Of a stretch of DNA of 44,991 bases, positions 2,509-36,449 are shown in pieces. The translations under genes and the position numbers were made by a program. The DNA comes from a virus. Where the stretch lies: positions 1 through 44,991 of the IMG/VR virus record IMGVR_UViG_3300046007_008872; one strand, written 5' to 3'. The notes beneath the pieces are model-generated. The model did no database searches. It had not been told where the DNA came from and was given only the letters and a program-made list of their open reading frames with translations. The first letter of the stretch is position 1. Each line of letters begins with the position of its first letter.

Positions 2509-2973
2509 TTAATCTTTATAAATACCTAACACAGGAACATTATCTAATCCTTTTCTTACGTATGAATGAAACCTATGCCACCCATCAATAATTAATTCCT
2601 CATCATCAAAATCAATTATTATTGGTAAAACAGAATCTCCGTGATCTGTATCATCACCATACCATTTATGGTATTCATCAAAAGTTTCATAACCCATTCT
2701 ATCTTTAACTTCATCTTTGATTAAATCAATTGGGACTTCTCCGTAATAAAATACTTTTCGTTTTTCTTTTGGGGTTAACTCATCAAGTAATTCATTTATA
2801 ATCTCATCATCATTACCAACACCTTCATTCCTGGCTATCATTAATGATTTTTTATAGTCATAGGGTAATTTGTTGAAGGTTTCAGTGTTTAAATACGAAT
2901 AAATGTCATTAGCAGATTCATTAATAACTCCCATCATTGATTGTATTCTTGATATTTGTTCTTGTAGGTTCAT
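2509..2973 (-). CDS. Leader-bearing ParB/sulfiredoxin-fold protein (154 aa)
   Basis: Residues 1-19 are the shared leader MNLQEQISRIQSMMGVINE, whose INE end fits a prohead-protease site. The C-terminal half carries the ParB-like motif IIDGWHR (128-134), followed by GLDNVPV and preceded by an acidic strand, as in the ParB/Srx fold. Members of that fold bind nucleotide (CTP) or act as DNases or kinases. I infer a packaged effector acting on DNA or nucleotides. Its start overlaps the stop of the upstream leader gene by 4 bases (ATGA), so the two are translationally coupled. Confidence 0.7.
   Translation of the reverse strand: MNLQEQISRIQSMMGVINESANDIYSYLNTETFNKLPYDYKKSLMIARNEGVGNDDEIINELLDELTPKEKRKVFYYGEVPIDLIKDEVKDRMGYETFDEYHKWYGDDTDHGDSVLPIIIDFDDEELIIDGWHRFHSYVRKGLDNVPVLGIYKD
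2930..2973 (-). repeat. Leader cassette DNA repeat, copy 1
   Basis: This stretch encoding MNLQEQISRIQSMMG is nearly identical in DNA to copies at 3436-3479, 4140-4171 (shortened), 6583-6626 and 7525-7568. Confidence 0.7.
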
Positions 2974-9164: not shown

Positions 9165-9455
9165 TTATAATTTACCGTTTTTTTTAAAGTTATTATAATA
9201 ATGTTTAGTTAACTCACCAAACTTGTCGTCTAAATATTGAATAAAACTATCAGTATCTTTGGTTGGTATTTCTTCTAAATTTATGTTGTAGCCATAAAAA
9301 AGATAATTTTCTAATGTTACGTGAAATAATTTATATTTGAAGGTTTTGGAATCTGGTGAATCATAATAGGTATATGGAATGCCTTTTCTCATCATTTTTT
9401 CAAACTTATGGAGATCAATTCTTCTTGTAAAAACTGGTGGTAAATTATTTTCCAT
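9165..9455 (-). CDS. TRR-motif family protein (96 aa)
   Basis: MENNLPPVFTRRIDLHKFEKMM places an RR motif at residues 11-12, as in the family at 7209-7568. The end (FGELTKHYYNNFKKNG) also resembles that family. There is no packaging leader. The first base of its start codon coincides with the last base of the DHH gene, so the two are translationally coupled. It may be a partner of the DHH protein. Function unknown. Confidence 0.55.
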   Translation of the reverse strand: MENNLPPVFTRRIDLHKFEKMMRKGIPYTYYDSPDSKTFKYKLFHVTLENYLFYGYNINLEEIPTKDTDSFIQYLDDKFGELTKHYYNNFKKNGKL

Positions 9456-11275
9456 TACTTTCTTGAGTATGGTCTAAACCTCATCGGACTTGATTTTAAA
9501 GCCGGTTCCGAAAATCTTGTACCAGATCCTTGTCTTCTTGCCATTTTTAATGTTCTAGCATATTCATCTAAATCTCTTTTTTTTCTACCTTGACAATGTG
9601 CTTTTTGTGAAAAACCTTTTGGGTTGTTACAATCAATACTTCTTTTATATTTTTCTGACCATTCTTCACCAAGTTCTTTTGTTTCACTTTCTTGATTTAT
9701 CTTTTCTTGTAGAACATCAACAAATAAATTTTGTATCTCTTTTACAAGATCAACATAAGTTTTATCTGTTTTTTCACTACTTTCAAATGTAGTTGATAAA
9801 CCTTCTTTTTCTATTTGTTTAATGGCCATTTCTTTTTGTTTATCGGATAATGTACCAAATCTTAATAGTTTTGATTTTATATCATTCACAAATCTATCAG
9901 ATCCTTCATAATTTGCAATTGGTTTTAATTCATCTGGTACATTTTGTTTTTCAGTATTGTTACCTTTTTTTCTGTAAAGAAAATTAATACCAGATATATT
10001 TGTTATACACTTATGACCACCAGAGTTTGCTTTAATTACATCAAGACCATTTACTGTTATCTTTTCAAATAATTCTTTTTGTTTTGGTGATAATGTTCTA
10101 TATAATTTTTTTGACATATCTTCCAATATTTCAAAAAGTCTCTCACCACCGTTTACTTTAAATGATGGTACTGAACCATATATTGCTACCATATCTCTTA
10201 ATGTAAAACCAACTGATGAATATTCAGCTTCAAATTCTGATACTTTTTTAATATCACCAAAACTAACTTTAAGACTTTTTAATTCTGAACTCATTTGTTC
10301 TAAAACCTCATCTTTAACTTCACCTAAATTAATACCTTTAAGTGCTCTTTCTTTTTTGAACGGATTACAAGAAGATTGGACCATACCCATTGGCATGCCG
10401 GTAACAATAAAATCAGCGTCCGGATTATTTCTAAATGGTGTATATCTATCATAAGCCCCAGGTTTTGATGTACCACCAAACCCATATTGAGTTATTATAT
10501 TACCAATTGTTTTTACAGCTTTAGGGTCCTTTCTACTTTCAAGATATTTTGCTTGATTTTGTATCATATCTTCAGGTTTTGCAAAACCTTTTTCAACTGC
10601 TTGTTTTCTAATGTTATTTAAAATACTAATTAAAGATGGTTGTGCATTTAAAACAACATCTTCCATAAAACCAGGTTTATTCTTATATGCTAATAATAAT
10701 TTATTAACAACAAGACCCATTAACATTTTGTTTCTTTCTAATGTTTTATCTTTATCGTATTTAAATAAATAATTCATAACCATTTCTGGTGTAATATCGT
10801 GTTCTATAAAGTTTGCAGAATCTACTGTTGAGATAAGTAATATGTCTTGCGATGGAAATATTTCTTTTGGTGACATTACTTGTGATATTGTTTCAACATT
10901 TGACCTTGATGGTCTAAAACTTGTTGACTTTGTATCTTCAGCTCCGGCTTGTGTGTCGTGGTGATCGGTGTGAATCTCAAACATTGGTTTTCCGTGTGCA
11001 AAATCAACTAAAACCGGCATAACCTCACCGGAAGCGTCAGGTTTTTTAATTGCAAATTCCTTTGCACCATATTGTATTTTTTCAGCATCAACAACTTTAA
11101 TTCCGTGTTGTTCCAAATAGTTTTTCATACCTAAAGCTGTTGTTACACCATCAAGATCTTGATGAAAATATATCTTTGCTTTTGGGTATCTTTTTGCAAG
11201 TTCTTTTATCCCTTTAATACCAGACTCTAATAATAGAGTATGTTCTCTTAAAATTTTCTTAATTAAATCTTTCAT
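9455..11275 (-). CDS. Leader-bearing DHH-family phosphoesterase (606 aa)
   Basis: Leader MKDLIKKILREHTLLLE (1-17), with LLE as a possible cut site. DHH motifs follow in order: FHQDLDG (37-43), D91 in VLVDFAHG, HTDHHD (102-107) and D152 in STVDSANF. These are the metal ligands of RecJ/NrnA-like exonucleases and phosphodiesterases. The C-terminus carries RSIDCNNPKGFSQKAHCQGRKK-type sequence (C549, H560, C561), a short basic Cys motif I recall at the ends of other phage proteins. I infer a packaged nuclease or phosphodiesterase, perhaps degrading host DNA or cyclic-nucleotide alarm signals. Long for the family. Confidence 0.75.
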   Translation of the reverse strand: MKDLIKKILREHTLLLESGIKGIKELAKRYPKAKIYFHQDLDGVTTALGMKNYLEQHGIKVVDAEKIQYGAKEFAIKKPDASGEVMPVLVDFAHGKPMFEIHTDHHDTQAGAEDTKSTSFRPSRSNVETISQVMSPKEIFPSQDILLISTVDSANFIEHDITPEMVMNYLFKYDKDKTLERNKMLMGLVVNKLLLAYKNKPGFMEDVVLNAQPSLISILNNIRKQAVEKGFAKPEDMIQNQAKYLESRKDPKAVKTIGNIITQYGFGGTSKPGAYDRYTPFRNNPDADFIVTGMPMGMVQSSCNPFKKERALKGINLGEVKDEVLEQMSSELKSLKVSFGDIKKVSEFEAEYSSVGFTLRDMVAIYGSVPSFKVNGGERLFEILEDMSKKLYRTLSPKQKELFEKITVNGLDVIKANSGGHKCITNISGINFLYRKKGNNTEKQNVPDELKPIANYEGSDRFVNDIKSKLLRFGTLSDKQKEMAIKQIEKEGLSTTFESSEKTDKTYVDLVKEIQNLFVDVLQEKINQESETKELGEEWSEKYKRSIDCNNPKGFSQKAHCQGRKKRDLDEYARTLKMARRQGSGTRFSEPALKSSPMRFRPYSRK

Positions 11276-11673: not shown

Positions 11674-12069
11674 CTACCACTGTCTATTTGTATTGGTATT
11701 AATTAATTCGTTTTCATTAAAATTTAACTGGACTTTATATTTTTGTTTTATCCTATAGGCTAATGCAATAAGAAAGTCACTAAAGTCTTGGCTTGCAAAT
11801 AAAGATGAAAAATATATGTCTACATCAACCTTAATTATTGGGTATTTACTTGTTATTTTTATTAGTCCTGGAACTGATTTTACTTGTTCACTATTGACCG
11901 CTTGAATTTTTTCAATTGATTCTAGAGTTTCACAATCATCAAAATTTAACCAGCCTGGCCAAGTATCAGCATCTGGAACTTCACAAACATTTCTAAACTC
12001 ATTTAAGGTATCATTTATTAATTTTTGTGTAACAGAATCAAATTGTCCTTCAGTTATTAGATATTTCAT
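11674..12069 (-). CDS. Leader-bearing hypothetical protein (131 aa)
   Basis: The opening MKYLITEGQFDSVTQKLIND fits the MKIxITExQ leader type. The body is alpha/beta with no recognised motif (NVCEVPDADTWPGWLNFDD, then KYPIIKVDVDIYFSSLF). An ATAAATA element lies 5 bases upstream. I infer packaging in the virion from the leader only. Confidence 0.6.
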   Translation of the reverse strand: MKYLITEGQFDSVTQKLINDTLNEFRNVCEVPDADTWPGWLNFDDCETLESIEKIQAVNSEQVKSVPGLIKITSKYPIIKVDVDIYFSSLFASQDFSDFLIALAYRIKQKYKVQLNFNENELINTNTNRQW

Positions 12070-12116: not shown

Positions 12117-12419
12117 ATGTTTGATTCAAAATTACATTCCGCATTTCAAAAGTTTTTAATTAAACAAAGTGGTGGTAATATAATAAACATTAAATCATTT
12201 AGTGTTCAAGCCGATACTGGACATTATGGTACCGGTTTTAATACTATTGTTACATTTGAACGTAAATTACTAATTGAATGTACTTGTGTAAATAGTAATT
12301 ATTTTCCTGGTATTGAAAATTTAAATGAAAGGTTTTTTACTTTTTTTAAAAATTACCTTAATGGGATTTCAGATGTTCAGATACATTATCACTACTCAAT
12401 GTATTATTGTCGTGATTAA
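12117..12419 (+). CDS. Hypothetical protein (100 aa)
   Basis: MFDSKLHSAFQKFLIKQSGGN... has a helical start and then beta strands (NTIVTFERKLLIECTCV). Not recognised. CATTTAT sits just before the ATG. The last 62 bases overlap a minus-strand lipoprotein gene, an unusual antisense arrangement. It could be a remnant, but the frame is intact. Confidence 0.5.
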   Translation: MFDSKLHSAFQKFLIKQSGGNIINIKSFSVQADTGHYGTGFNTIVTFERKLLIECTCVNSNYFPGIENLNERFFTFFKNYLNGISDVQIHYHYSMYYCRD

Positions 12420-12507
12420 TTTTACCATAAGCATCACAACTAGCTTTACTTGTTTTACAAGAATTTAAAAGAATTACAGAAATTAGTATTAGTATTAATT
12501 TTTTCAT
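12358..12507 (-). CDS. Small lipoprotein (49 aa)
   Basis: MKKLILILISVILLNSC has a basic N-terminus, a hydrophobic core and a lipobox LLNSC with Cys17 as lipidation site. The mature peptide is about 33 residues. It lies one base after the end of the alpha/beta hydrolase gene on the same strand, so it belongs to the peptidoglycan-enzyme unit. Its small size suggests a spanin-like or envelope-modifying lipoprotein, but no partner was identified. Confidence 0.6.
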   Translation of the reverse strand: MKKLILILISVILLNSCKTSKASCDAYGKINHDNNTLSSDNVSEHLKSH

Positions 12508-12508
12508 A

Positions 12509-13441
12509 TTACATTTGATTTGAATATTTCTCAAAAAATAGTTTAGGTATTTGTAAATGTGAAGTACTGACTTTTTCAGCGTCTCCGTTTTTTTCCATTT
12601 GTCTTAAAAGACGACCAATACCAGCGTGACGCCCAGTCCAATTATTAGAATTTGATACTACTTTTACATTATCTGGTAAGTTTGAATAAACCTTTGATGT
12701 TGATGGATCGATTAAACCAACAAAATCATAATTTCCATTAATTTCTTTCCAAGTATTAACCCCACCTCTTGAAAATCCACTAACCGAATTTATTTTGTAG
12801 TCACCTAAATCATTATCTTCTAATATTTTTTTAACATTTAAAATTGAATTTTCGTAATTACTATAAATTACATTTTTATTTTTAAAAAACTCTCTACCAA
12901 TTTTTTCCATAAATTTAGCACCATAGTTAATACTTGGCATACCACCCCAAATTAGAGTAATTTTTTTTGAGTTTGGGTTGTTTAAATTAATAATATATGA
13001 ATTTTTAATTATTTGTTTTTTTTCTGTATTATCAGATTTTTCTGTTTCTTCTGGTTCTTTTGTTTCTTCTGGTTCTTTTGTTTCTTCTGGTTTTTCATTA
13101 TATTTTTTTATAATAAGTTCAAGTAATTTTTTTGTAAAATCTTTATCTATTTTTCCGGTAATTTCTAAATCTTGGTCTTTTTGGAATTTTTCAACATTTT
13201 TTAATGTTTCATTACCAAATTTTCCATCTATACCAAATTTATTAAAGGTATAATTAAGTTTGTCTAAACCTGATTGTACTGCAGCAACGCCAGAATTATA
13301 TTTATATGAGTCCATACCTTTAGTAAAAACTTGATCACCATCTATTATTTTCTGTAAGTCAGTTTTATAATCTTCTAAAGACATACTTTCCATTAATCTA
13401 ATAAGTCTTTTTGTTTGACTTTCTGTTAATATTATTTTCAT
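12509..13441 (-). CDS. Leader-bearing PG-binding + alpha/beta hydrolase (310 aa)
   Basis: Start at the leader MKIILTESQTKRLIRLMES (1-19). A peptidoglycan-binding type 1 domain follows (about 52-110: GIDGKFGNETLKNVEKFQ). Then come three EETKEP-type repeats (119-133) and an alpha/beta hydrolase-like domain with ITLIWGG (161-167), the nucleophile elbow GFSRGG (S224), LIDPS (D245) and H272 or H295 as candidate triad. Layout PG-binding plus esterase recalls mycobacteriophage LysB, though the host here should lack mycolic acids. I infer an esterase acting at the envelope. Confidence 0.7.
   Translation of the reverse strand: MKIILTESQTKRLIRLMESMSLEDYKTDLQKIIDGDQVFTKGMDSYKYNSGVAAVQSGLDKLNYTFNKFGIDGKFGNETLKNVEKFQKDQDLEITGKIDKDFTKKLLELIIKKYNEKPEETKEPEETKEPEETEKSDNTEKKQIIKNSYIINLNNPNSKKITLIWGGMPSINYGAKFMEKIGREFFKNKNVIYSNYENSILNVKKILEDNDLGDYKINSVSGFSRGGVNTWKEINGNYDFVGLIDPSTSKVYSNLPDNVKVVSNSNNWTGRHAGIGRLLRQMEKNGDAEKVSTSHLQIPKLFFEKYSNQM
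13037..13095 (-). repeat. Tandem codons for EETKEP linker
   Basis: A near-exact 18-base unit is repeated about three times, encoding the acidic linker between the PG-binding and hydrolase domains. Confidence 0.6.
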
Positions 13442-13445
13442 ATTT

Positions 13446-14972
13446 TTATGTTTGTAAAATTGATGCCGCATAAGCATAAGATTCATTAGGTATTTTTCCT
13501 TTTAAATCAGTAAAAGGAATTTTTTCATCTAAAGCAGTTTTATATATTTTTAAATTAGGCCCACTATTATACCCAGAAAATGCTAAATCAAGTCTTCCTG
13601 GAAACTTTTTAACTAATTTATCCATAAATGCTACATATGCAGATAAAGCGTCAGTTGGTTTGCAAGGATCTCCTCCTTTACCATATGTTGGCCAAGTTGT
13701 TGGCATAAACTGTGCAAGACCCATAGCACCAGATCTTGATTTTCTTTTACAACTAATAACATCTGGTGAAAACCCAGATTCGCTATGTAATTGTCTCATT
13801 GCAAACTTAATAGGTATTCCAACTGATTCAATGTCTGATTTAAATTTATCATAATCAACACCAGGTATATTTTTAAATTGTTGTTCTAAATCTGAAGGGT
13901 ATTTTCTAACTTGGACTCCTGGATTTTCTATTACTCTAACATTATCAACAGATTCTTTATTGTTAGAATCTTTTTTATCTTCTGAATTTGTTTTTTGTGT
14001 AGGTGTGTATGATGGAAATAATTTTTTTGCTAACTCTTGTTGTGTTTTAACATCAAAATATCCAGTACTTTGTAGACCATTTTTACTTTGGAAATCTAAG
14101 ATATCTTTTTTAGTTTGCTCGTCAAATTTACCTAAATCTTTATTTTCAGTACTTTGTCTAAGATAGAAGTATAAAACAATTTGCATTCTTTTTATGTCAT
14201 TTTTTTTACTATTTTCATCAACATTTTGATTTTTTTCTAAGAACTTAAAATAGTTTTCAAAGAACTTTTTAAAAGCTTCTCTTTTATCATCATTATTTTC
14301 ATTTGAATTTTGATTTTCGTTTTCTTTTTTTGACTGCGTAATATATCTAGAAACATAGTCTTTTATAGTTCTGTGTTGTGAAGTACCAATATGGATTCCA
14401 TCACTAGGAGCCCAAGAATCATCCCCATCAATTGTTGGAATTATTGTTGCGTTTTTAATTTGTGAACTTAAATCTTTTTGTAGCTGTACCATTCTTTCTC
14501 TACCTTTTTTCATACACGTTGGGTCACAAAGATATGTACCGTCTTTTTTCTTGGTTGGTTTTAAGTTTTTATCTGTCATAACACTATCTGCAGCATAACC
14601 TAAAAACACATAAGATTGTCCGCCTTGATTATTAACAGCGTCAACCATTTTTTGTATATCAGAAACTGCATCTGATAAGTTTGACCCAACCCAAAAAGCG
14701 TTATTGGTTCCACCCCAAATAAAAACTTTATCGTATTTTTTTTTACTTAAATTTGATAACATATTAGTTAACATCCAATCTGTTTTCATACCACGTTTAA
14801 CTACGTGAGTTACATTCCATTCTGGATGATCTTTTGCTAATTGGTAATTCCAAGTATTACCAGGACTATCACTTAAACTATCACCAACAAACATAACATT
14901 AATCTTATCATCATCTTCAGTGATTAAGTTAATTAGTTTTTTAAGTTGATTTTCTGTGACAAGAATTTTCAT
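13446..14972 (-). CDS. Leader + SGNH esterase + PG-binding + lytic transglycosylase (508 aa)
   Basis: Leader MKILVTENQLKKLINLITE (1-19, LITE end). An SGNH/GDSL hydrolase follows: block I FVGDSLSD (28-35, S32), block III GGTNN (87-91), block V DGIH (D191, H194). Residues 230-320 are a PG-binding-like domain related to that of the next gene. At 380-508 is a lysozyme-like lytic transglycosylase domain: ESGF (E398), GAMGLAQFMPTTW (415-427), SGYNSG (467-471). Together these could deacetylate or deacylate glycan and cleave it. The start lies 6 bases after a TATTTAT element. Confidence 0.8.
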   Translation of the reverse strand: MKILVTENQLKKLINLITEDDDKINVMFVGDSLSDSPGNTWNYQLAKDHPEWNVTHVVKRGMKTDWMLTNMLSNLSKKKYDKVFIWGGTNNAFWVGSNLSDAVSDIQKMVDAVNNQGGQSYVFLGYAADSVMTDKNLKPTKKKDGTYLCDPTCMKKGRERMVQLQKDLSSQIKNATIIPTIDGDDSWAPSDGIHIGTSQHRTIKDYVSRYITQSKKENENQNSNENNDDKREAFKKFFENYFKFLEKNQNVDENSKKNDIKRMQIVLYFYLRQSTENKDLGKFDEQTKKDILDFQSKNGLQSTGYFDVKTQQELAKKLFPSYTPTQKTNSEDKKDSNNKESVDNVRVIENPGVQVRKYPSDLEQQFKNIPGVDYDKFKSDIESVGIPIKFAMRQLHSESGFSPDVISCKRKSRSGAMGLAQFMPTTWPTYGKGGDPCKPTDALSAYVAFMDKLVKKFPGRLDLAFSGYNSGPNLKIYKTALDEKIPFTDLKGKIPNESYAYAASILQT

Positions 14973-14978
14973 TATATT

Positions 14979-14985
14979 ATAAATA
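14979..14985 (-). promoter_or_regulatory. TATTTAT late promoter candidate
   Basis: 6 bases before the ATG at 14972. Confidence 0.4.
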
Positions 14986-15011
14986 CAATTAAAAAATTAT
15001 TAGTGAATATT

Positions 15012-15206
15012 TTAATTTAGTTTTTCTTTCCAGAATTTAAACAAATTTAAATCGTCATATTTTTTATTTTTTTGATTCCAACCACACATATGACATAAAT
15101 AAGGTTGTTTGTCTTTTTTTTCTTTAACCCAAGAATGGTCACATTTACATTTTATTTTTTCACCAAATAATTTTTCTGCTTGTTTTTCAGTAATTATTAT
15201 TTTCAT
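15012..15206 (-). CDS. Leader-bearing zinc-ribbon protein (64 aa)
   Basis: MKIIITEKQAEKLFGEK (leader) is followed by KCKCDHSW...PYLCHMCGW, a CxCxH...CxxCGW zinc ribbon. I recall this at the ends of other large-phage virion-type proteins (CKCGHSW...YLCHKCG). The protein is little more than tag plus ribbon, so it may carry no activity of its own or bind DNA in the capsid. It overlaps the upstream VanY/M23 gene by 4 bases. Confidence 0.7.
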   Translation of the reverse strand: MKIIITEKQAEKLFGEKIKCKCDHSWVKEKKDKQPYLCHMCGWNQKNKKYDDLNLFKFWKEKLN

Positions 15207-16741
15207 ATTTTCTTTATATTATTTTCATAAGCACTAAGTTTATCTGGTTTTATAAATGTGAATATTTTTTCATCAATATCTTTTGGGTCAGAGTCTTTAA
15301 CCGATTTTGTTATATTACCTTTTGTTTCTTTTCTTTCTTGTGCGTTTGGTGGAAAATATTCAAAATGTAAATGTGGACCGGTAGATGGTCCTTTATTTCC
15401 AACTGTAGCTAACACAGAACCAGGTTTTATTATATCACCAGTCTTGAAATAAACACTTTGACAATGGCACCATTTTGTTTGTGATCCATCTGGATGACTT
15501 AATTCAAAACAATATCCTGATGGATATCCACTTTTTATCATTTTACCTTCAATGAGTAAAACAATTGGTGTTCCAACTTTAAGGCCACCATAATCTCTAC
15601 CAGCATGCCAATGCCAATTACAATATCTTGACTTAGATTTACTACATAAACTAGGTATTGCACCTCTCCAACCGTAAGTTTTACCTCTTTTTGATGAAGG
15701 TGATATTAAATTATTTGTGTCTAATTTAGAAACATCTAAACGAGTTAACGATATTTTTGTTTCAAAACTTTGATTTTGTGATTGATTTTGTGATTGATTT
15801 TGTGATTGATTTTGTGATTTAAATAAATCTGCTAATTTTTTTTGTGTTTCTAAATCAAAATATCCTGTTTTTGTTAAATTATTATTATTCTGGAATTCTT
15901 CAATATCTTTTTTGGTTTCGTCAGTAAATATACCATCGGTTTTTATTTTTTGATTTTTTGTAACAATAAAAAGAACTATCTGCATTCTCATTATATCGTT
16001 TTTACTACTTTTTTTATCAACTATTGTTTTTTTATCAACAAATTTAATAAAATTACCAATAAAAGTTTTTAAAGTATCTGTATTTGTATTAGATTCTGTA
16101 TTTGTATTAGATTCTGTATTTTTTTTATCTGATGAACTTATATCACCTGTATAATATAAATGCCAAGGTTCCGCCATTCTTAATACACCATCTTTTTGGT
16201 ATGAAATTTTAAATCCAAATCTACCACAGTTATCTGCAACCCAATCTTTAATATCTTTATTACTATTCCACCATTCTGGTCTTAAATCCAAAATATCAAA
16301 AGTTTTACCTGTTGAGTGTTGTGAAAATCCAGGTAATGCAGATGCTCTTTGTCTACCGGAAACTCCACCTTGTTCTTTTATTTTACCACCAAATACAGAA
16401 ACTTGTGTTATATAACCTCTATAACCAGATTGACAACCGGCTAAATTATTACAGTTACTATTTTTTGGTTTAGGCGCATTTGGAAATTTTTTATATAATT
16501 CATCCAAAAATTCTTTTAGTTTTTGGAATGCTGTGTTATCTATTTTACCATTGTCCGGATAAGTTTGACCTTCTTGTTCAAACTCTTTTTTAATATTTTC
16601 ATCGGTAATTTTTACACCATAATTTTGTTCAATTTGTTTTATAGCATTTTGAATATTTGAAGGTAGTTTTGCTAATTCAGTAGATTCATTTAAAATAAAA
16701 TTTATTAATTTTGATTGTCTTTCTGTAATTATTAATTTCAT
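15203..16741 (-). CDS. Leader + VanY-like peptidase + PG-binding + M23 peptidase (512 aa)
   Basis: Leader MKLIITERQSKLINFILNE (1-19). A LAS-type D,D-carboxypeptidase follows: SQHSTGKTFD (S140, H142, D149) and EPWH (E191, H194). Two TESNTN repeats, a PG-binding-like domain (245-306), an NQSQ-repeat linker and an M23 glycyl/L,D-endopeptidase (H379/D383 in HAGRD, HLHF with H457, H459) complete it. Both zinc sites look intact. It should cut peptide stems and cross-bridges, complementing the transglycosylase gene next to it. It overlaps the nuclease gene by 4 bases. Confidence 0.8.
   Translation of the reverse strand: MKLIITERQSKLINFILNESTELAKLPSNIQNAIKQIEQNYGVKITDENIKKEFEQEGQTYPDNGKIDNTAFQKLKEFLDELYKKFPNAPKPKNSNCNNLAGCQSGYRGYITQVSVFGGKIKEQGGVSGRQRASALPGFSQHSTGKTFDILDLRPEWWNSNKDIKDWVADNCGRFGFKISYQKDGVLRMAEPWHLYYTGDISSSDKKNTESNTNTESNTNTDTLKTFIGNFIKFVDKKTIVDKKSSKNDIMRMQIVLFIVTKNQKIKTDGIFTDETKKDIEEFQNNNNLTKTGYFDLETQKKLADLFKSQNQSQNQSQNQSQNQSFETKISLTRLDVSKLDTNNLISPSSKRGKTYGWRGAIPSLCSKSKSRYCNWHWHAGRDYGGLKVGTPIVLLIEGKMIKSGYPSGYCFELSHPDGSQTKWCHCQSVYFKTGDIIKPGSVLATVGNKGPSTGPHLHFEYFPPNAQERKETKGNITKSVKDSDPKDIDEKIFTFIKPDKLSAYENNIKKI
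15770..15820 (-). repeat. Four 12-base tandem repeats (NQSQ linker)
   Basis: Exact repeats of a 12-base unit encode NQSQ four times, a flexible linker before the M23 domain. Copy number is likely to vary. Confidence 0.75.
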
Positions 16742-17610
16742 CGGAATCTGATTTCTTCAACATTTATTGGTATACTATTAAATAGTACTTTGTCATAAAC
16801 AAATCCTTTTTTTGAAGTCAAATCGTTTTGGATTTTAATGTCGGTGTCATTTTCTAAAATTATGTATTCATTTTTTTGTTGGTTATGAAAAATAATATAA
16901 TCAACCTTGTCTATATTATATCCTTTTGTTGGATATTTCTTTGTAAAAACTTCTGTTTTCATACCAAGTTTATTATAAAACATTAATGGTTTGACTTGAA
17001 ATGTTGCTTTTAATCCATTTTTTTCTAAAATAAAGTCTTGTCCACCTTTTGTATCCGTTTTTGATCCAGGACAAAAATTAAATTCACCACTTAATTTTAA
17101 TTTATCTTTAATATCTTTATAAACTTCATTTTCTGAAACGGAACCTTTTGTTATTGCTCTCAAATTCATAATAACAAGTTCTTCAAATTCTGAAGTTCCT
17201 TTTTTTTCTCTAATAAATTCATTAATAAAATCTAAAAAATTATCAACTGTTTCATCTAAATCAGTTCTTCTAAATTTTTGTAAAAGTGAATCTAAAACCA
17301 AACCACTTGTATTAAAAAAGTTTATAACGGACCAATTAGATTTTGGACATTTAAGTCTTTCACTATAATCTGTAAAAGTATATATTCCAATAACACCAAA
17401 ATTGGTATAACAATCTATTTCTGGTTTATTAGCCGTACCCCAATTACCGGTTGGTTCAAAAATTGATTTTAACATTAATAAAAATTTATTTTTAAAATGT
17501 TGATTATTTTTTAAACCATTTGATGATAATAAATCTCTTTTAATATCTTGTTCAGAAATAAGGCCCATCATTTTTTTTATTCTACTATGTTCTAATATAC
17601 TTGTGTTCAT
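16738..17610 (-). CDS. Leader-bearing PD-(D/E)XK-like nuclease (290 aa)
   Basis: Leader MNTSILEHSRIKKMMGLISE (1-20) is a variant of the MMGxINE type. The C-terminal half shows GGQDFIL (D192) followed by ATFQVK (Q205, K207), the D...(E/Q)xK signature of restriction-like nucleases, with E143/E144 as a possible further acid. I infer a DNase packaged with the genome, perhaps for host DNA breakdown. The assignment rests on a short motif, so moderate. It is the first gene of the peptidoglycan-enzyme operon. Confidence 0.6.
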   Translation of the reverse strand: MNTSILEHSRIKKMMGLISEQDIKRDLLSSNGLKNNQHFKNKFLLMLKSIFEPTGNWGTANKPEIDCYTNFGVIGIYTFTDYSERLKCPKSNWSVINFFNTSGLVLDSLLQKFRRTDLDETVDNFLDFINEFIREKKGTSEFEELVIMNLRAITKGSVSENEVYKDIKDKLKLSGEFNFCPGSKTDTKGGQDFILEKNGLKATFQVKPLMFYNKLGMKTEVFTKKYPTKGYNIDKVDYIIFHNQQKNEYIILENDTDIKIQNDLTSKKGFVYDKVLFNSIPINVEEIRFR

Positions 17611-18326
17611 TAATTAAAATAACTTTCATCAATTATTATTCTCTTTCCTTTTCTAAATTCTCTATCATATACTTCTAAACTAACATATGATGTTTCTTCT
17701 TCTCTTCCACAAACAATTGTAGCATCAAAACCATCACCATCACCAATTTCATCATAATCATTTTCACCAAGTATTTTAAATTTTAATAATCTTTTAATTT
17801 CGGCTCGTAACATATAATAGTCATTAACTTTACCACTAACAACTTTACCATTTTTGTATTGTAAACTAAAATCACTTAAATTAAAATCATCATCTCTTAC
17901 ACTACAATCAAAAATTAACTTTTCTACATTTTTATTTTTGTTAAATACATTTGAAATATAGTCGACTTCTATTGCCGGAATATCCCACCAGTCCCAACCT
18001 TTTCTATATTGATTTGATGTGTATTCCATATAATTGGCTTGTAAAATAATTTGTTTTTCATTAGGGTTAACTGTTACATCGACATTCCAAATTGAGTCTT
18101 CTTTATTTGTTGAGTTCCACATTTCAAAACCATTTTCATTACATAAACTAACAATAAAATCTTTAAACATTTTTATTACCTTAATTGGATTACTATTTTC
18201 TTTCCACATTACACCATCAAAATATTCTACGCTATCGGTGTTCATTTCAATATTAGTTCCAACACTACCTGTTGATTTTATGTATGTAATTAAACCGTTA
18301 AATATTTTTAATTCATTATTCATCAA
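17610..18326 (-). CDS. Paralogous array protein 4 (238 aa)
   Basis: Most divergent of four tandem paralogues (17610-20379). It shares the start plan (ELKIFNGLITYIKSTGSVGTNIEMN), the central beta region, and acidic patterns, but has lost the GDSG motif (FDCSVRDDDFNLSDF instead). Its start overlaps the preceding gene by 11 bases and its last base is the first base of the nuclease gene's ATG. Function unknown. Confidence 0.6.
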   Translation of the reverse strand: MMNNELKIFNGLITYIKSTGSVGTNIEMNTDSVEYFDGVMWKENSNPIKVIKMFKDFIVSLCNENGFEMWNSTNKEDSIWNVDVTVNPNEKQIILQANYMEYTSNQYRKGWDWWDIPAIEVDYISNVFNKNKNVEKLIFDCSVRDDDFNLSDFSLQYKNGKVVSGKVNDYYMLRAEIKRLLKFKILGENDYDEIGDGDGFDATIVCGREEETSYVSLEVYDREFRKGKRIIIDESYFN

Positions 18327-19011
18327 AATCTTCTGGTTTTACTTCTAAATTTATTTCATTTGTATATTGTTCTTCAGTATTCCATTCGTGATTAACTATA
18401 ATTTCATCTTTTGTAAAATCTATTGTACCTTGTGATCCTTCATTTATTTCCCAACCTCCGTATTCTTCAAGTAAATTATAACAAATACTTTCAATATCAT
18501 CATCTATTTGTCCGCTCTTATTTTTAGATGTATAATCACTTTCAATATATCCTGAATCACCACTACCATTATAACTAACGGTCATATCTTCAATTCCTTC
18601 ATGTTCTAAAAATTTTCTTACTTCCATAAATGCTTCATACATACCGTCACCTTCTGTATTATCACTAATATCATATGACATACCAGTAGATTCACTTCCA
18701 TATTCGGTATGTGTTGTTTCATTAAAGATAAGTTTATTTTTTTCTGGATAAAAGGTAAGTTCGACTTGAAAATAATCACTAGCACTATTACTACTTGATC
18801 CAGGACCAAAATCATATAATTCTTCAACATAATGTTCTACAATTTCTTCAACTATTGACTCAACATTTGATGGTAAAGATAAATTACTTTTTCCTCTACA
18901 ATAAGGGTTTATATAATCAATTGTGTTATAGTCAATATCAATATTAATACTGAACTCTTCACATTTGAGTGCTTTTATATAAGCAATTAAAAATTGTATT
19001 TTCTTTTTCAT
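18316..19011 (-). CDS. Paralogous array protein 3, DUF6878-like pattern (231 aa)
   Basis: MKKKIQFLIAYIKALKCEEF, then MTVSYNGSGDSGYIESDY (about 143-160) and YGGWEINEGSQGTIDFTKD (about 189-207). The pair of motifs YxGxGDSGxI and GWExxxGSxGxI is one I associate with DUF6878-type proteins. It starts one base after the preceding gene stops. Function unknown; acidic, cytoplasmic. Confidence 0.6.
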   Translation of the reverse strand: MKKKIQFLIAYIKALKCEEFSINIDIDYNTIDYINPYCRGKSNLSLPSNVESIVEEIVEHYVEELYDFGPGSSSNSASDYFQVELTFYPEKNKLIFNETTHTEYGSESTGMSYDISDNTEGDGMYEAFMEVRKFLEHEGIEDMTVSYNGSGDSGYIESDYTSKNKSGQIDDDIESICYNLLEEYGGWEINEGSQGTIDFTKDEIIVNHEWNTEEQYTNEINLEVKPEDFDE

Positions 19012-19012
19012 A

Positions 19013-19702
19013 TTATTCTTCTTTTACATTATCTGGTGTTACTTCAATACGCATTCCAGTATCTTCATATTCTTCTTCATATTTTACATAATCTAAAAAC
19101 ATAACACTATCCCAAACTACTAAATCACCTTCAGCACCAGGACCTTCATTCCAATATGGTCCTCCTTCTGCTTTGTGCATTAAATCAACAACTAGTCCCC
19201 AAAATCCATCATCATCATCATCAAAATTATGTCTTCTATTATCAAAATAAACACTGTCTATTTCACCATCATCCCATCTTCCGGTAAATTCTATTTCAAA
19301 TTTTGTTAAACCTTCATTCTCTTCATATACTTTATTTATAAAATCTTTGTTTTCTTGTCTTAAATCTTTAAAATCATATTGTTTTTTATTTCTTGTTGTT
19401 TTTTCTACTTTACATTCACTTGTAAAAATTAATTTATTTTCAAATGGTTTAATGTGTATTTCTAAATACCAATATTCGTCAACACTATAATCATTATATC
19501 TAAGAAAATCATCATAATATAATTCAATTAATTCTTCAATTATTTTAATTATTGAACCTGTTGGTTTTATACGTTTATTATTAACTTGGAACTTTTCATC
19601 CCAATCTTCAATATGACTTCTATCAAAAGTTATATGTGTATGAACATTCTTATCTTTTAGAGCTCTAAAATAAGCAAATAACATTTTTAATTTATTTTTC
19701 AT
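19013..19702 (-). CDS. Paralogous array protein 2, DUF6878-like pattern (229 aa)
   Basis: Same layout as its neighbours: MKNKLKMLFAYFRALKDKNV, IEFTGRWDDGEIDSVYF in place of GDSG, and GGPYWNEGPGAEGDLVV in place of GWEINEGSQG. The central motif is therefore degenerate in this copy. It overlaps the upstream paralogue by 4 bases. Confidence 0.6.
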   Translation of the reverse strand: MKNKLKMLFAYFRALKDKNVHTHITFDRSHIEDWDEKFQVNNKRIKPTGSIIKIIEELIELYYDDFLRYNDYSVDEYWYLEIHIKPFENKLIFTSECKVEKTTRNKKQYDFKDLRQENKDFINKVYEENEGLTKFEIEFTGRWDDGEIDSVYFDNRRHNFDDDDDGFWGLVVDLMHKAEGGPYWNEGPGAEGDLVVWDSVMFLDYVKYEEEYEDTGMRIEVTPDNVKEE

Positions 19703-20379
19703 TCTTCAAAATCGTTTTCTGTTATTTCTTTTTTATAACTGGATTCTTCCATTTCTCTCATATTCCAGTTGTGTTCAATATCAATAACAATTGTATCATC
19801 ATATTGTCTATATATTTTAATTTCACCATTTGATCCATCATCTATTTCCCAACCACTAAAAGCACGTTCAAGGTCACCGTATAGTGTGTTTTGAATTAAT
19901 TTTTCATCTTCATCTTGAGTGCCCCAACTAATATTTGCTGCCTTACCGTCAATTTCAATATATTCAATTTCCCCACTATCACCACCACCATTATATCTTG
20001 CAGTAATTTCATCAATTTCTTTTCTATTGAACATCTCAATAAATTTTTCATCATTAATGTCCCTTGAATAAGATTCTTGTTGTTCTGTATACATTTCATA
20101 GTCACAACTAATTTCTACTTTGTTTTTAAATGGATATATTGTAAGTACAATTCTGTAATATTCAGTATCACTTCCTGGTGCTTCTTCATATACTTCTTCC
20201 CAAAACATTTCAGCAATTTCTGTTGCAATATCTTTTATATTTGATGGTATTTTTTCAACGTTAGAATGGGGCCATTCCCATTCTGGACCTTCGCCTTCAT
20301 AACAAGACCAACTAAACCCAATAGTGTCTTTTTTATATGCTTTTAAAAAAGCTAATAGGGCCTTAAATTTTCTTTTCAT
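19699..20379 (-). CDS. Paralogous array protein 1, DUF6878-like pattern (226 aa)
   Basis: MKRKFKALLAFLKAYKKDTI, ITARYNGGGDSGEIEYIEI (about 127-145) and SGWEIDDGSNGEIKI (about 175-190). It is the head of the four-gene array, starting 4 bases after a TATTTAT element, so the array is probably one late transcript. The basic N-terminal helix shared by all four copies could be a targeting tag different from the other leaders, but it has no obvious cut site. Confidence 0.6.
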   Translation of the reverse strand: MKRKFKALLAFLKAYKKDTIGFSWSCYEGEGPEWEWPHSNVEKIPSNIKDIATEIAEMFWEEVYEEAPGSDTEYYRIVLTIYPFKNKVEISCDYEMYTEQQESYSRDINDEKFIEMFNRKEIDEITARYNGGGDSGEIEYIEIDGKAANISWGTQDEDEKLIQNTLYGDLERAFSGWEIDDGSNGEIKIYRQYDDTIVIDIEHNWNMREMEESSYKKEITENDFEE

Positions 20380-20807: not shown

Positions 20808-22664
20808 ATGCGCGACATTATTAGACAAGTATTAAAAGAAGAATCCGGTGATGATAAGTTAATATCTTATTTCATAAAAAAATGGAATAAAGGAAAGAAT
20901 AGTGATGGTAAACCAACATTTAATCCGGGTGAAATTAAAAAACTTGGTCTTATGAAACACTTTAATAAAATCAGATTAGGTTTTATTGATTATTATGAAG
21001 AAAATATTGGTAATCCGGTTGATGATATTTTAAAAGAATTAACAGAAACTACTTTCACGACTGATGATATTAAAAAATTAGGAATTGATGTTGGTGGTTA
21101 TGATTTTAAATTTGATATTGAAGATATTTTAACCTACGACGCAATAGAAAAAGGAAGTTTTGGTAAGATAAAACCATACGCAAGAGTTAAAGAAGGTACT
21201 GTAACACACGATGGTGAAACTTTTGATTTAACCGATATAAATAACGCCGAAGAACATAAATACTGGAATGATGTTGAATATGAGGTTGAGGACTTGATTA
21301 GTTTTTTTATCGAAAAGAAACTTCTTTCATATGGATTTAATCTAGATGACTTGGAACTTGTTGTTTATATGTATAAGAACAAAGGTTCATTAAACGAAAG
21401 TGTTGATGATAAAAAAATAGATATTGCAAATAAATTTTTTAATAGTTTAAGATTAATTCCATATCATAGTAAAGGGTATAAAATGGAATTTCTTGGAACA
21501 AAAAAAGGTATCTATTTATTTATGTCACATCGTAAATCAGTTACAATACAAGATAACATATACGATATGTTATTAAAAATTTTGGGTAAAGAAAAATATG
21601 TTGAAAGTTTTGTTTGGAATAAATTAAAGGATTTAGGTTTTACATTAGCACCGCCTGAATTTATGTATTTTGAAAAAGATGATGCTGTTGGTTCTTTTGA
21701 ACCTAGCGATGATGAAGATTACGGATTATTAAAAGAGCCAAAAAAATTAAATGAAGCAAAAATGTTACCAAAAAACAAATTTGCAAAACAATGGCTTTCA
21801 AGATATAACAACTTAAAAAAATACAAATCTGAAGATGGTAGATTTATTTATCTAGCAAATGATAATGGAAGTATTATTGTTAGTTTAGATACACAGATAA
21901 ATGAAACTGCTGTAAGTTGGGAACATATTTGGTCAATGTTAGAAAAACATTTTACAGAAAAAGAAACAAGAAGAAAAATAATTGGTTGGTTACTTGACCG
22001 GTACCATTTAGCTGATATGGGTTATGTTTATGATGAAAGTCAGGATATGATGGGTAAAATCGATAGTAGTGATGTTTTAATTGAGTCAAGACAAATAACA
22101 GAATCTCAACAAAAAAGTCAACTAAAAGACTATTTCTTCAAAAAGTGGACAAAACAAAAAGAACAAGGTCAATTACCAAAATTAAGTTTTAAAGAAATAA
22201 AAGGTTTAGGTTTAAAAAAATATATGAATGAGATTATATTTTATTATTCTGAATTTATGAACCTTGATCCAAATGACACAAATAGAAGAACAGAAATAAT
22301 TAAAAATTATTTATTAAATAATACTTTTGATGAAAATGATATCACAGAAATGAAAAATTCTTTTGATGATGGTAAAATAAAAGTAAGATTTAGTAAAGTT
22401 GAGTTTTCAGAGAATGAAAATCAGGTTAAAAATTACATAAATTTAGACATTGAGTTTTTAGTTTTAAGTGGTTCATTTTATAATCAAACAGAAAATCAAA
22501 CTGTAAATTTTTCAAGTACAGAAAATCCGTTTGATGATTTTGTACAATATTTTGAATTTAAAGAAGTTATTGAACAAGTTGTTGAGAGTTTTATTTTTGA
22601 ACTTATCGAATCATTTGGTTTTAATATTAATAATGATATTGATTATATAAGTGTTAAATGGTAA
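20808..22664 (+). CDS. Leader-bearing polyprotein-like protein (618 aa)
   Basis: Leader MRDIIRQVLKEE (1-12). Module A (17-180, KLISYFIKKWNKGK... EIKKLGLMKHFNKI) recurs as module C near the C-terminus (QLKDYFFKKWTKQK... EIKGLGLKKYMNEI) and again in the next gene. Between them are a different module with YKMEFLGTKKGIYLFM and another with WLSRYNNLKKY. The joints read SLNES, KLNEA, LIES and ITES, all (I/L)xE sites like those ending the leaders. I infer one precursor cut into several packaged proteins. No enzyme motif is seen. Confidence 0.65.
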   Translation: MRDIIRQVLKEESGDDKLISYFIKKWNKGKNSDGKPTFNPGEIKKLGLMKHFNKIRLGFIDYYEENIGNPVDDILKELTETTFTTDDIKKLGIDVGGYDFKFDIEDILTYDAIEKGSFGKIKPYARVKEGTVTHDGETFDLTDINNAEEHKYWNDVEYEVEDLISFFIEKKLLSYGFNLDDLELVVYMYKNKGSLNESVDDKKIDIANKFFNSLRLIPYHSKGYKMEFLGTKKGIYLFMSHRKSVTIQDNIYDMLLKILGKEKYVESFVWNKLKDLGFTLAPPEFMYFEKDDAVGSFEPSDDEDYGLLKEPKKLNEAKMLPKNKFAKQWLSRYNNLKKYKSEDGRFIYLANDNGSIIVSLDTQINETAVSWEHIWSMLEKHFTEKETRRKIIGWLLDRYHLADMGYVYDESQDMMGKIDSSDVLIESRQITESQQKSQLKDYFFKKWTKQKEQGQLPKLSFKEIKGLGLKKYMNEIIFYYSEFMNLDPNDTNRRTEIIKNYLLNNTFDENDITEMKNSFDDGKIKVRFSKVEFSENENQVKNYINLDIEFLVLSGSFYNQTENQTVNFSSTENPFDDFVQYFEFKEVIEQVVESFIFELIESFGFNINNDIDYISVKW

Positions 22665-23239
22665 TGAAAGAGTTAATTAGACAAATATTAAAAGAAGATA
22701 GTAGTGTTAATGCTCTTAAAAAGTATGTAATGACAATCTTTAAAAGACAGGTCGATTCTGGTATAATACCGCACATACCTTACGAGGATTTTAGAAGAAA
22801 AAAAATTACAAAATACATTGAATTAATTGATAAATGGTATTTTGAATTTTTGGAAAGTCATTATGGTGTTAATGATGGTTTTGAAAAGGCCAAAACTTTA
22901 TTCCATAATACGATTGAGGATATTAACGAGGAAGATTTAAAGAATGTTGGGATTGGTACTGGTCAAGACCGGTTTGAAGTATCTATTCCTTGGATTGAAT
23001 TTTCTGGAGAGATAATACAATTAGACGTTGAGTTTGGTTTTAAAATAAACGATTGTTATTTAGAAACTGAAGATGGAATGAAGACTTACGAAGAAATGTT
23101 ATTTAATGATAATTTTTCGGATTACGAATGGATTGAGGTAACAGATTTTTTAAGAAGTGGGGTTGAGGAATACGTCCAAAGAAAAGGTTATGATTTTGGC
23201 CTAAATATTTTTGATGTCGAATCAGAGTGGGCCGACTAA
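22664..23239 (+). CDS. Leader-bearing module-A paralogue (191 aa)
   Basis: Start at the second ATG (MKELIRQILKED), which gives the MK(D/E)LIxxILKE leader and shares one base with the stop of the upstream gene; a start at 22658 is also possible. The body (ALKKYVMTIFKRQ... FRRKKITKYIELIDKWYFEF) repeats the module found twice in the 618-aa neighbour, so this gene probably arose by the same duplication. A bidirectional terminator follows. Confidence 0.65.
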   Translation: MKELIRQILKEDSSVNALKKYVMTIFKRQVDSGIIPHIPYEDFRRKKITKYIELIDKWYFEFLESHYGVNDGFEKAKTLFHNTIEDINEEDLKNVGIGTGQDRFEVSIPWIEFSGEIIQLDVEFGFKINDCYLETEDGMKTYEEMLFNDNFSDYEWIEVTDFLRSGVEEYVQRKGYDFGLNIFDVESEWAD

Positions 23240-26521: not shown

Positions 26522-27400
26522 TTATAAACTTAATAACATATCAATTAAATCTGGATGTGGGTACATATCCACTTTTCCTCTTATCACATTTGTGTGGGTA
26601 TATAGTCCAGGTGTTTTTTCTGCTTTTGCAACATCTAATACATCAAATCCATCAGCACCTTTAGCTTTAACATATTCAACTAAACCAACTCTTGGGTCGA
26701 TAGAATATTTCTCGGCAATAAATTTAATCCAATTTTCAAGAGCTTTTAATTGTGTTTCAGAGTAGTTGTGCCAGTATTGGAACCCTCTAAATGGTTTTGC
26801 TAATTTAATAATTTGACTTTCGGCAGCTGGAGTTCCAACATAAGTCTTACCGTTTACAATCTGTCCCATAGAACAAACTTCAATACCAATTGAATTTCTG
26901 TGCATTACAGAATTTCCGGTTCCAGTATGCCAACCATATCCTCCGTCTGGAAAACACTGAACTAATTCACCATCAAATTTTGATGATTTACCATCAACTG
27001 ATTGTCCACCTAAAATATATTCTGTTGCAACATTACCACGGTTGTCTCTAGCCCACATATCTGCAACTTGATATGGGTTTGGTCCACCGGCTGTATGGTG
27101 TAAAAAAATCCAATCCTTTGGAACTGGTCCTTTAAAATAAGTTCCTTCTGGCATATAGTATTTTTTAATACTCAATGCGTTTACAACTTCAATGTTTTCA
27201 GCATTATCTGTATTTAAAATACCCATTGCTGCCCACGTATTTTTACCAACAATACCATCTGCTGATAATCCGTGAGTTTTTTGCCAGTTCTTAACTGCCG
27301 TTTCAGTTTTTGGTCCAAAATCACCATCAACGGTAATTTTAAGAAATTCTTGTAAAGTTTTAACTGATTCACCTTTACTTCCTAGTTTTAATACTTGCAT
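26522..27400 (-). CDS. N-acetylmuramoyl-L-alanine amidase endolysin (292 aa)
   Basis: An N-terminal peptidoglycan-binding domain (1-62: LKLGSKGESVKTLQEFL, DGDFGPKTETAVKNWQ) is followed by an Amidase_2 domain: IFLHHTAGG (zinc His), GGYGWHTG, SIGIEVCSMG and GLYTHTNVIRGKVDMYPHP near the C-terminus. It cleaves the amide bond between muramic acid and L-Ala. It has no packaging leader and no signal peptide, unlike the enzymes at 12.5-16.7 kb, so it is the likely lysis enzyme. It has its own terminator. Confidence 0.85.
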   Translation of the reverse strand: MQVLKLGSKGESVKTLQEFLKITVDGDFGPKTETAVKNWQKTHGLSADGIVGKNTWAAMGILNTDNAENIEVVNALSIKKYYMPEGTYFKGPVPKDWIFLHHTAGGPNPYQVADMWARDNRGNVATEYILGGQSVDGKSSKFDGELVQCFPDGGYGWHTGTGNSVMHRNSIGIEVCSMGQIVNGKTYVGTPAAESQIIKLAKPFRGFQYWHNYSETQLKALENWIKFIAEKYSIDPRVGLVEYVKAKGADGFDVLDVAKAEKTPGLYTHTNVIRGKVDMYPHPDLIDMLLSL

Positions 27401-36134: not shown

Positions 36135-36449
36135 TCATTGGAAAGCATTAATAAATCTTCCGGCAACTATCTCAAAGTTTTCTTTATCCTTTGGGTAATA
36201 TTCATTAGCGGCAGCTTCTAATGCTGCTTTCACGTGCATTTTAGCAAATTCAACCATAAGAATTTCAATACTATTTCCTGGATTACCTTTATGGTTTTTG
36301 TGTAAAAAGTTTTGTATAAAATCTTCTGCTGTTGGTGTTTTTTCCGATTTATTAGAAATATTCTCATCAACTTCTTCTGGTTGTTCTTCAATTACTCGTT
36401 TAACAATTCTTGTTAAATCAGTTTCGGTAAGTTTTATTATTTTTTTCAT
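36135..36449 (-). CDS. Leader-bearing protein (104 aa)
   Basis: It has the fourth leader type, MKKIIKLTETDLTRIVKRVIEE (VIEE end), which I recall from many large-phage proteins. The body is short: an acidic linker and a helix pair (SIEILMVEFAKMHVKAALEA). It ends at a TGA followed in frame by a coding-like stretch. An ATATTTAT element lies 4 bases upstream. Packaging is inferred from the leader; activity is unknown. Confidence 0.65.
   Translation of the reverse strand: MKKIIKLTETDLTRIVKRVIEEQPEEVDENISNKSEKTPTAEDFIQNFLHKNHKGNPGNSIEILMVEFAKMHVKAALEAAANEYYPKDKENFEIVAGRFINAFQ

Follow-up and report, generated by a model that had tools for sequence, protein, structure and literature searches.

Cell wall enzymes in the gene cluster share an N-terminal leader

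The 44,991-base virus fragment analysed here (IMG/VR record IMGVR_UViG_3300046007_008872, 28.9% GC; hereafter the window) carries on its minus strand, at positions 12358-17610, a cluster of genes for multidomain peptidoglycan enzymes. Three of the encoded proteins combine wall-cutting or wall-binding domains, and they have in common with a small zinc-ribbon protein encoded among them the start MK[IL][IL][IV]TExQ, which we call a leader (proteins bearing one are called tagged). An earlier note on this DNA had described the cluster as VanY, SGNH and hydrolase fusions together with a zinc protein, a nuclease and a lipoprotein. This composition was recovered by domain and motif searches, with the hydrolase as a putative assignment (Table 1). 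The note had placed the genes 4-35 bases apart, which has to be corrected, as the intergenic spacings are 1, 4, 39, -4, -4 and -1 bases. Its leader, given as MKIxITExQ for every enzyme, is present on the three wall enzymes and the zinc-ribbon protein, whereas the nuclease bears a leader of another class.

In the VanY-M23 protein, VanY (63 bits), PG_binding_1 (32) and M23 (57) were all recognised, and the metal-binding and catalytic motifs are intact (SQHSTGKTFD and EPWH in VanY; HAGRD and HLHFE in M23). Among annotated phages we found no close homologs of this protein, just domain-level M23 matches, and none of the zinc-ribbon protein; the latter has 22 relatives in IMG/VR and keeps its leader in all of those listed. 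The SGNH-SLT protein contains PG_binding_1 (33 bits) and SLT (45 bits) domains, the latter with HSESG, which includes the catalytic Glu, and GAMGLAQ. Its SGNH/GDSL match (30.1 bits) falls slightly under the Pfam cut-off of 32.9, and the GDS, GGTNN and DGIH blocks are present. Tagged homologs occur in contigs L009 and L012 and, over the SGNH part, in L006. The C-terminal part of the third enzyme may be an alpha/beta-hydrolase, a motif-level guess from a GFSRG elbow and possible Asp and His residues; it matched neither Pfam nor the PDB, and the predicted model has a predicted local distance difference test (pLDDT) score of 36. The first gene of the cluster probably encodes a PD-(D/E)XK-like nuclease, since a GSK.D...G.D...Q.K core (D192, Q205, K207) is invariant across five homologs. 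Foldseek ranked I-Ssp6803I and Hjc highest, with a low-confidence model that was matched over its confident C-terminal part; at E 0.008-0.06, which is not below 0.001, these matches count as supportive. The lipoprotein at the other end had no match in Pfam. By eye it resembles a 50-aa lipoprotein at G003:115342, with which it shares an SCKTSKxSCDAYG start; it adjoins tagged enzymes in the window but sits elsewhere in G003.

Table 1. Cluster genes, other leader-bearing genes and the endolysin of the window (a slash marks the end of the leader)
Position	Strand	Feature	Basis
12358..12507	-	Small lipoprotein, 49 aa, lipobox (MKKLILILISVILLNSCKTSK...), final cluster gene	Translation
12509..13441	-	Leader MKIILTESQTKRLIRLME/S, PG_binding_1, putative alpha/beta-hydrolase	PG_binding_1 38.2 bits; motif
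13446..14972	-	Leader MKILVTENQLKKLINLITE/D, SGNH esterase, PG_binding_1, SLT lytic transglycosylase	Pfam, motifs
15012..15206	-	Leader MKIIITEKQAEKLFGE, four-Cys zinc ribbon, 64 aa	Translation
15203..16741	-	Leader MKLIITERQSKLINFILNE/S, VanY carboxypeptidase, PG_binding_1, M23 endopeptidase	Pfam, motifs
16738..17610	-	Leader of other class (MNTSILEHSRIKKMMGLISE/Q), PD-(D/E)XK-like nuclease	Core motif, Foldseek
11674..12069	-	Type-A leader protein, function unassigned	Leader model; similar-start homologs in L005, L006, G003
2509..2973	-	Type-B leader protein (MNLQEQISRIQSMMGVINE/S)	Leader model
9455..11275	-	DHH-like protein with MKDLIKKILREHTLLLE/SGI	Pfam, homolog comparison
36135..36449	-	Type-D leader protein (MKKIIKLTETDLTRIVKRVIEE/Q)	Leader model
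22658..23239	+	Type-C leader protein (MVMKELIRQILKE/D)	Leader model
26522..27400	-	Untagged endolysin (PG_binding_1 + Amidase_2), contrast gene	Starts directly in PG_binding_1 domain

The window belongs to a group of T4-like jumbo phages

Open reading frames (ORFs) of the window were matched in three large relatives, G002 (55/86; 257 kb), G003 (40/86; 291 kb) and G001 (37/86; 304 kb), and the G003 counterparts are largely collinear, at 141-180 kb. All three encode a T4-type prohead protease gp21 (PF03420) and a gp23 capsid protein (PF07068); cognate gp21-type proteases were found in these genomes and in G005. In G003, a gene for ribosomal protein S21 (28.8 bits, above the cut-off of 27) sits between the portal and protease genes, on the strand opposite to terminase (TerL), portal, protease and major capsid protein. 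This arrangement is shared with the bS21 Bacteroidetes jumbo phages described by Chen et al., which span 293-331 kb with 31.0-33.7% GC (PMC9723584). On account of the shared ORFs, the gp21 and gp23 genes and the G003 S21 gene, the window very probably derives from a T4-like jumbo phage of this kind, and its host is probably a member of the Bacteroidetes.

Leaders recur on unrelated proteins and are conserved as peptides

We described the leaders by five profile models (classes A-E), with fragments starting at internal Met residues as control. A protein was scored as tagged at p<=0.0013 against such internal fragments. Strict leaders were found in 16 of 92 genes in the window, 42/408 in G001, 24/362 in G002 and 30/377 in G003, which exceeds chance. 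Flavobacterium phage immuto, which is also T4-like, was considered as a leader-bearing isolate and rejected, with one candidate among its 230 genes.

By their bodies, the 172 leader proteins form 90 clusters that have no detectable similarity to each other. Conversely, in three of the 29 multi-member clusters homologous bodies carry leaders of different classes (strict calls), among them the nuclease, whose homolog at G001:208354 begins with a type-A leader. Codon identity within the leaders is close to that expected from genome codon usage (0.59 versus 0.58 for type A; 0.55 versus 0.48 for type D). As the residues are kept while the codons vary, selection acts on the leader peptide. We also looked in the bodies for the basic charge of T4 internal proteins and found no difference from other genes.

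Leader ends resemble the predicted capsid maturation site

In an alignment to T4 gp23, which is cut at FLTE/A, the predicted capsid maturation site reads FLINE/A in G001 and G003, HLINE/A in G002 and IVSE/A in immuto. The leaders usually end in [ILV]xE, the same form as at the capsid site (ILNE/S, LITE/D, VINE/S, VVNE/S). When type A was defined by its first residues only, [ILV]xE occurred within residues 12-27 in 79 of 121 proteins, where windows further downstream in these proteins gave an expectation of 28.7. With one protein taken per body cluster the ratio was 75/88 against 25, a count that is partly circular because the class B-E models include the leader end. A genome-wide search for LxE at a fixed position, disregarding the leader, gave a slight rise only. 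By eye, the T4 Alt start MELITELFDE resembles MKLIITE...; the Alt propeptide is reported to be 7 residues long (PMC9026906).

Most wall enzymes score as tagged and endolysins do not

To survey wall enzymes we searched for PF01551, PF01464, PF02557, PF01471, PF00959, PF18013 and PF00182 over 41-45 records, which yielded, endolysins and Sec-secreted proteins excluded, 27 distinct wall-type proteins, the three of the window among them. Three large contigs carrying the endolysin are free of strict leaders and have just 2-5 genes in common with the window, so that leader-bearing contigs alone offer a fair test (the window, G001, G003, G012, G030, G032, G039 and L023). Two of the 27 proteins, from the leaderless contigs G018 and G022, were set aside on this ground. 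Among the remaining 25, 20 score as tagged, compared with 9% of all genes, some of these enzymes having been among the seeds of the models. Fisher and binomial tests were run on 20/27 and counted kin as independent, and thus overstate the strength of this association. The tagged enzymes cover M23, VanY, SLT, GH24, GH19, SGNH and Lysozyme2 domains, singly or combined, and leader classes A-E.

The amidase endolysin at 26522 is leaderless, as the earlier note had stated, and the contrast repeats in relatives: the PG_binding_1-Amidase_2 endolysin is untagged in 70 of 70 readable loci (80 loci in all), as are the PG_binding_1-GH19 endolysins of G001, G003, G008 and G012. Besides the window copy, the former occurs at 118 IMG/VR loci, with 75-96% identity among those listed; being common even to contigs that share 2-5 genes with the window, it seems mobile between phage lineages. 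Small SLT proteins with signal-peptide-like starts (G001:4856, G003:124128, G042:74309) are likewise untagged and may represent a second, secreted route for wall enzymes in such phages.

NlpC/P60, searched in 11 records, gave a single match (G003:196355-196984), a protein whose start, MHNFKGSYISEEKKPTFLVLEQ, contains LxE sites and has no scored leader; the neighbouring M23 gene is tagged. A glucosaminidase search gave no match, and Pfam recognised no wall-hydrolase domain in ten large G003 proteins taken mostly from the structural regions, although a tail lysin may have gone unrecognised. In G003:170225-171166, a type-C-like leader precedes a sub-threshold match to penicillin acyltransferase (AAT), a possible amidase cargo.

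Leaders are found near head genes

Close to the G003 capsid gene, the protein at 264155 scores as tagged (MNREIKITESQLTSLIRKVVNE/S), and its counterparts G001:143912 and G002:2727 begin, by eye, with different leader-like peptides. Leader-like starts were also noticed by eye at G003:250815, adjoining the terminase (MGHKELEKLIRRIVKE/A), and at G003:256091, in the portal-protease interval (MKFGVLKSKIEKCLIE/S). Strict leaders are few or missing where the tail genes of G001 and G003 lie.

We extended the comparison to nine 50-kb pieces of LR756508, an uncultured 484-kb phage that is only distantly related. The piece with the capsid gene holds six of the 13 leader-model matches, where 1.3 would be expected (p=0.0008). 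When a model was rebuilt from these six, it gave 16 matches, 10 of them new, and six of the new ones again fall in the capsid-gene piece. The capsid site of this phage reads LLKE/A, and several of its leaders end in VLKE/S or VLRE/D. The leader family particular to LR756508.1, M[KR]-[LI]-[TSK]-E-x-K-L-R-x-I-V-K-E-E-I, was noticed at 150-200 kb (L248) and 219-243 kb (L253); it marks at least 16 small proteins, most of them encoded close to the capsid gene.

Other genes of the window

Further type-B leader genes start at 2970, 6069 and 7209. In the DHH-like protein, most relatives retain the LxE/[SG]G[IL] end although the part upstream varies. Next to the cluster, at 17610-20379, lie four tandem ORFs of 226-238 aa that are leaderless and of which some at least are related to each other; their relatives are tandem in G002 (97715-99824), and the family has 22 members.

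Discussion

Taken together, these observations lead us to favour, as the probable explanation, that the leaders are capsid-targeting propeptides of the T4 type and that the wall enzymes are capsid cargo ejected to open the cell wall at entry. The capsid-targeting sequence (CTS) of T4 IPIII, for which ten N-terminal residues are enough (positions 4 and 7 serving targeting, 8 and 10 processing), is sufficient for packaging and delivery, and CTS fusions are both packed and delivered (PMC9026906). By analogy, the leaders would carry many unrelated proteins into the core of the prohead in a T4-like jumbo phage, where a gp21-type prohead protease would probably clip them after [ILV]xE. We infer that the wall enzymes leave the head with ejection at infection and most likely act on murein during entry: the esterase-transglycosylase and the D-Ala carboxypeptidase-endopeptidase would attack its glycan and peptide parts, while the untagged endolysin would do lysis. 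Murein attack by such cargo is plausible from T7, whose capsid-internal transglycosylase gp16 is ejected and works in the periplasm during entry (PMC8954989), and from the lack of wall-hydrolase matches in the ten G003 proteins. The earlier note had taken the leader for a virion address and suggested entry-phase wall remodelling from inside the tail path, or else another destination for this leader type. The leader's T4 CTS-like form, its capsid-site-like end and its presence on a head-cluster protein support a virion address indirectly; if it is a T4-type tag, the destination would be the capsid lumen with exit via the tail, not the tail wall.

Several observations weigh against this explanation. 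Five of the 25 wall enzymes fall below the strict leader threshold (G030 M23, G014 VanY-M23, G014 PG_binding_1, G012 GH24, G047 GH24), although all five still show [ILV]xE near the start, and none of the wall enzymes of G001 is clearly tagged. Two candidate sites occur in type-A leaders, namely ITE at residues 5-8 (72/75) and a later LxE (60/75), the later one missing from the zinc-ribbon proteins of many relatives; either or both may be cut. Head genes are absent within the window, and in two T4-like relatives, G018 and immuto, no such leader or a single one was found. Cargo bearing the T4 CTS is known to end up in the cytoplasm, a compartment in which a wall enzyme meets no murein. In the open-access literature we found no virion proteomics for this phage group and no description of such leaders in it.

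The destination of T4 cargo is also why we hold the virion-cargo part of our explanation more firmly than the entry part, as the cytoplasm fits the nuclease and not the wall enzymes. Accordingly, the enzymes could be capsid cargo that acts in the cytoplasm and later, for example as a lysis aid or on wall precursors. T4 internal proteins and CTS fusions do reach the cytoplasm (PMC9026906, PMC12373910), and the neighbouring tagged nuclease would require it. We nevertheless consider late cytoplasmic action unlikely, given that PG-binding domains and multidomain murein hydrolases require periplasmic murein, that the tagged enzymes lack signal peptides and that these phages already encode a separate endolysin. 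The leader might instead dock proteins at a site outside the capsid, such as the tail, the baseplate or a structure of the infected cell, and escape the prohead protease. The first ITE could then be a binding motif, and many zinc-ribbon proteins without a second LxE, as well as the leaderless state of some other T4-like phages, would fit. Such docking appears quite improbable in view of leader ends that have the form of the group's own predicted capsid maturation site, the leader on a head-cluster protein, the concentration of leader-like proteins around the LR756508 capsid gene and the scarcity of strict leaders in the G001 and G003 tail regions. Finally, exchange of leader classes between bodies could be expected if the common start were a DNA-level cassette for the spread of genes (a promoter, translation start or recombination site), with an inert peptide, but kept residues with codons varying about as genome usage predicts led us to reject this idea, to which we leave hardly any probability.

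If capsid targeting by these leaders is correct, the capsid content of uncultured jumbo phages would become readable from sequence alone, and a short N-terminal pattern would flag, among hundreds of unassigned genes, those that act during the opening minutes of infection. Murein opening at entry could then be the work of capsid cargo swapped among phages rather than of a fixed tail enzyme, and the leaders would provide a set of packaging tags for protein delivery into Bacteroidetes. More tentatively, interchangeable capsid addresses may pack dozens of accessory proteins per head, including a replaceable wall-opening kit of several chemistries in place of a fixed tail lysozyme, and related address families may serve other huge phages such as LR756508; we regard this wider proposal as possible and not yet as the likelier case.

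The closest known system is the T4 CTS with gp21, which acts on IPI-IPIII and Alt: here too a short N-terminal leader is found on unrelated accessory proteins with a hydrophobic-x-Glu cleavage logic, and related genomes encode an S77 protease and a gp23 capsid protein. The T-even ip genes were themselves discovered via their leader (PMC12373910). Against the four classic internal cargo proteins of T4, related genomes here each have 24-42 strict leader genes divided among several leader classes, with wall hydrolases as part of the proposed cargo. In P1, N-terminal residues of DarB likewise suffice to send a reporter to the capsid (PMC9024508), in a different type of phage and with an anti-restriction system as cargo. 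SPN3US and phiKZ are also giant, carry a large load of ejected head proteins and cut propeptides after x-x-Glu (PMC5694885, PMC10052503), but their propeptides mostly exceed 100 residues, and the majority of head proteins in SPN3US stay uncleaved. Like the proposed cargo, T7 gp16 is a capsid-carried murein-cutting enzyme ejected into the periplasm (PMC8954989); it differs in being a single core protein of a podovirus, lacking a CTS, as opposed to a variable set of enzymes. The bS21 Bacteroidetes jumbo phages agree in size, GC content and, for G003, the S21 gene between portal and protease; the accessible part of PMC9723584 makes no mention of leaders, and the window lies outside the head region.

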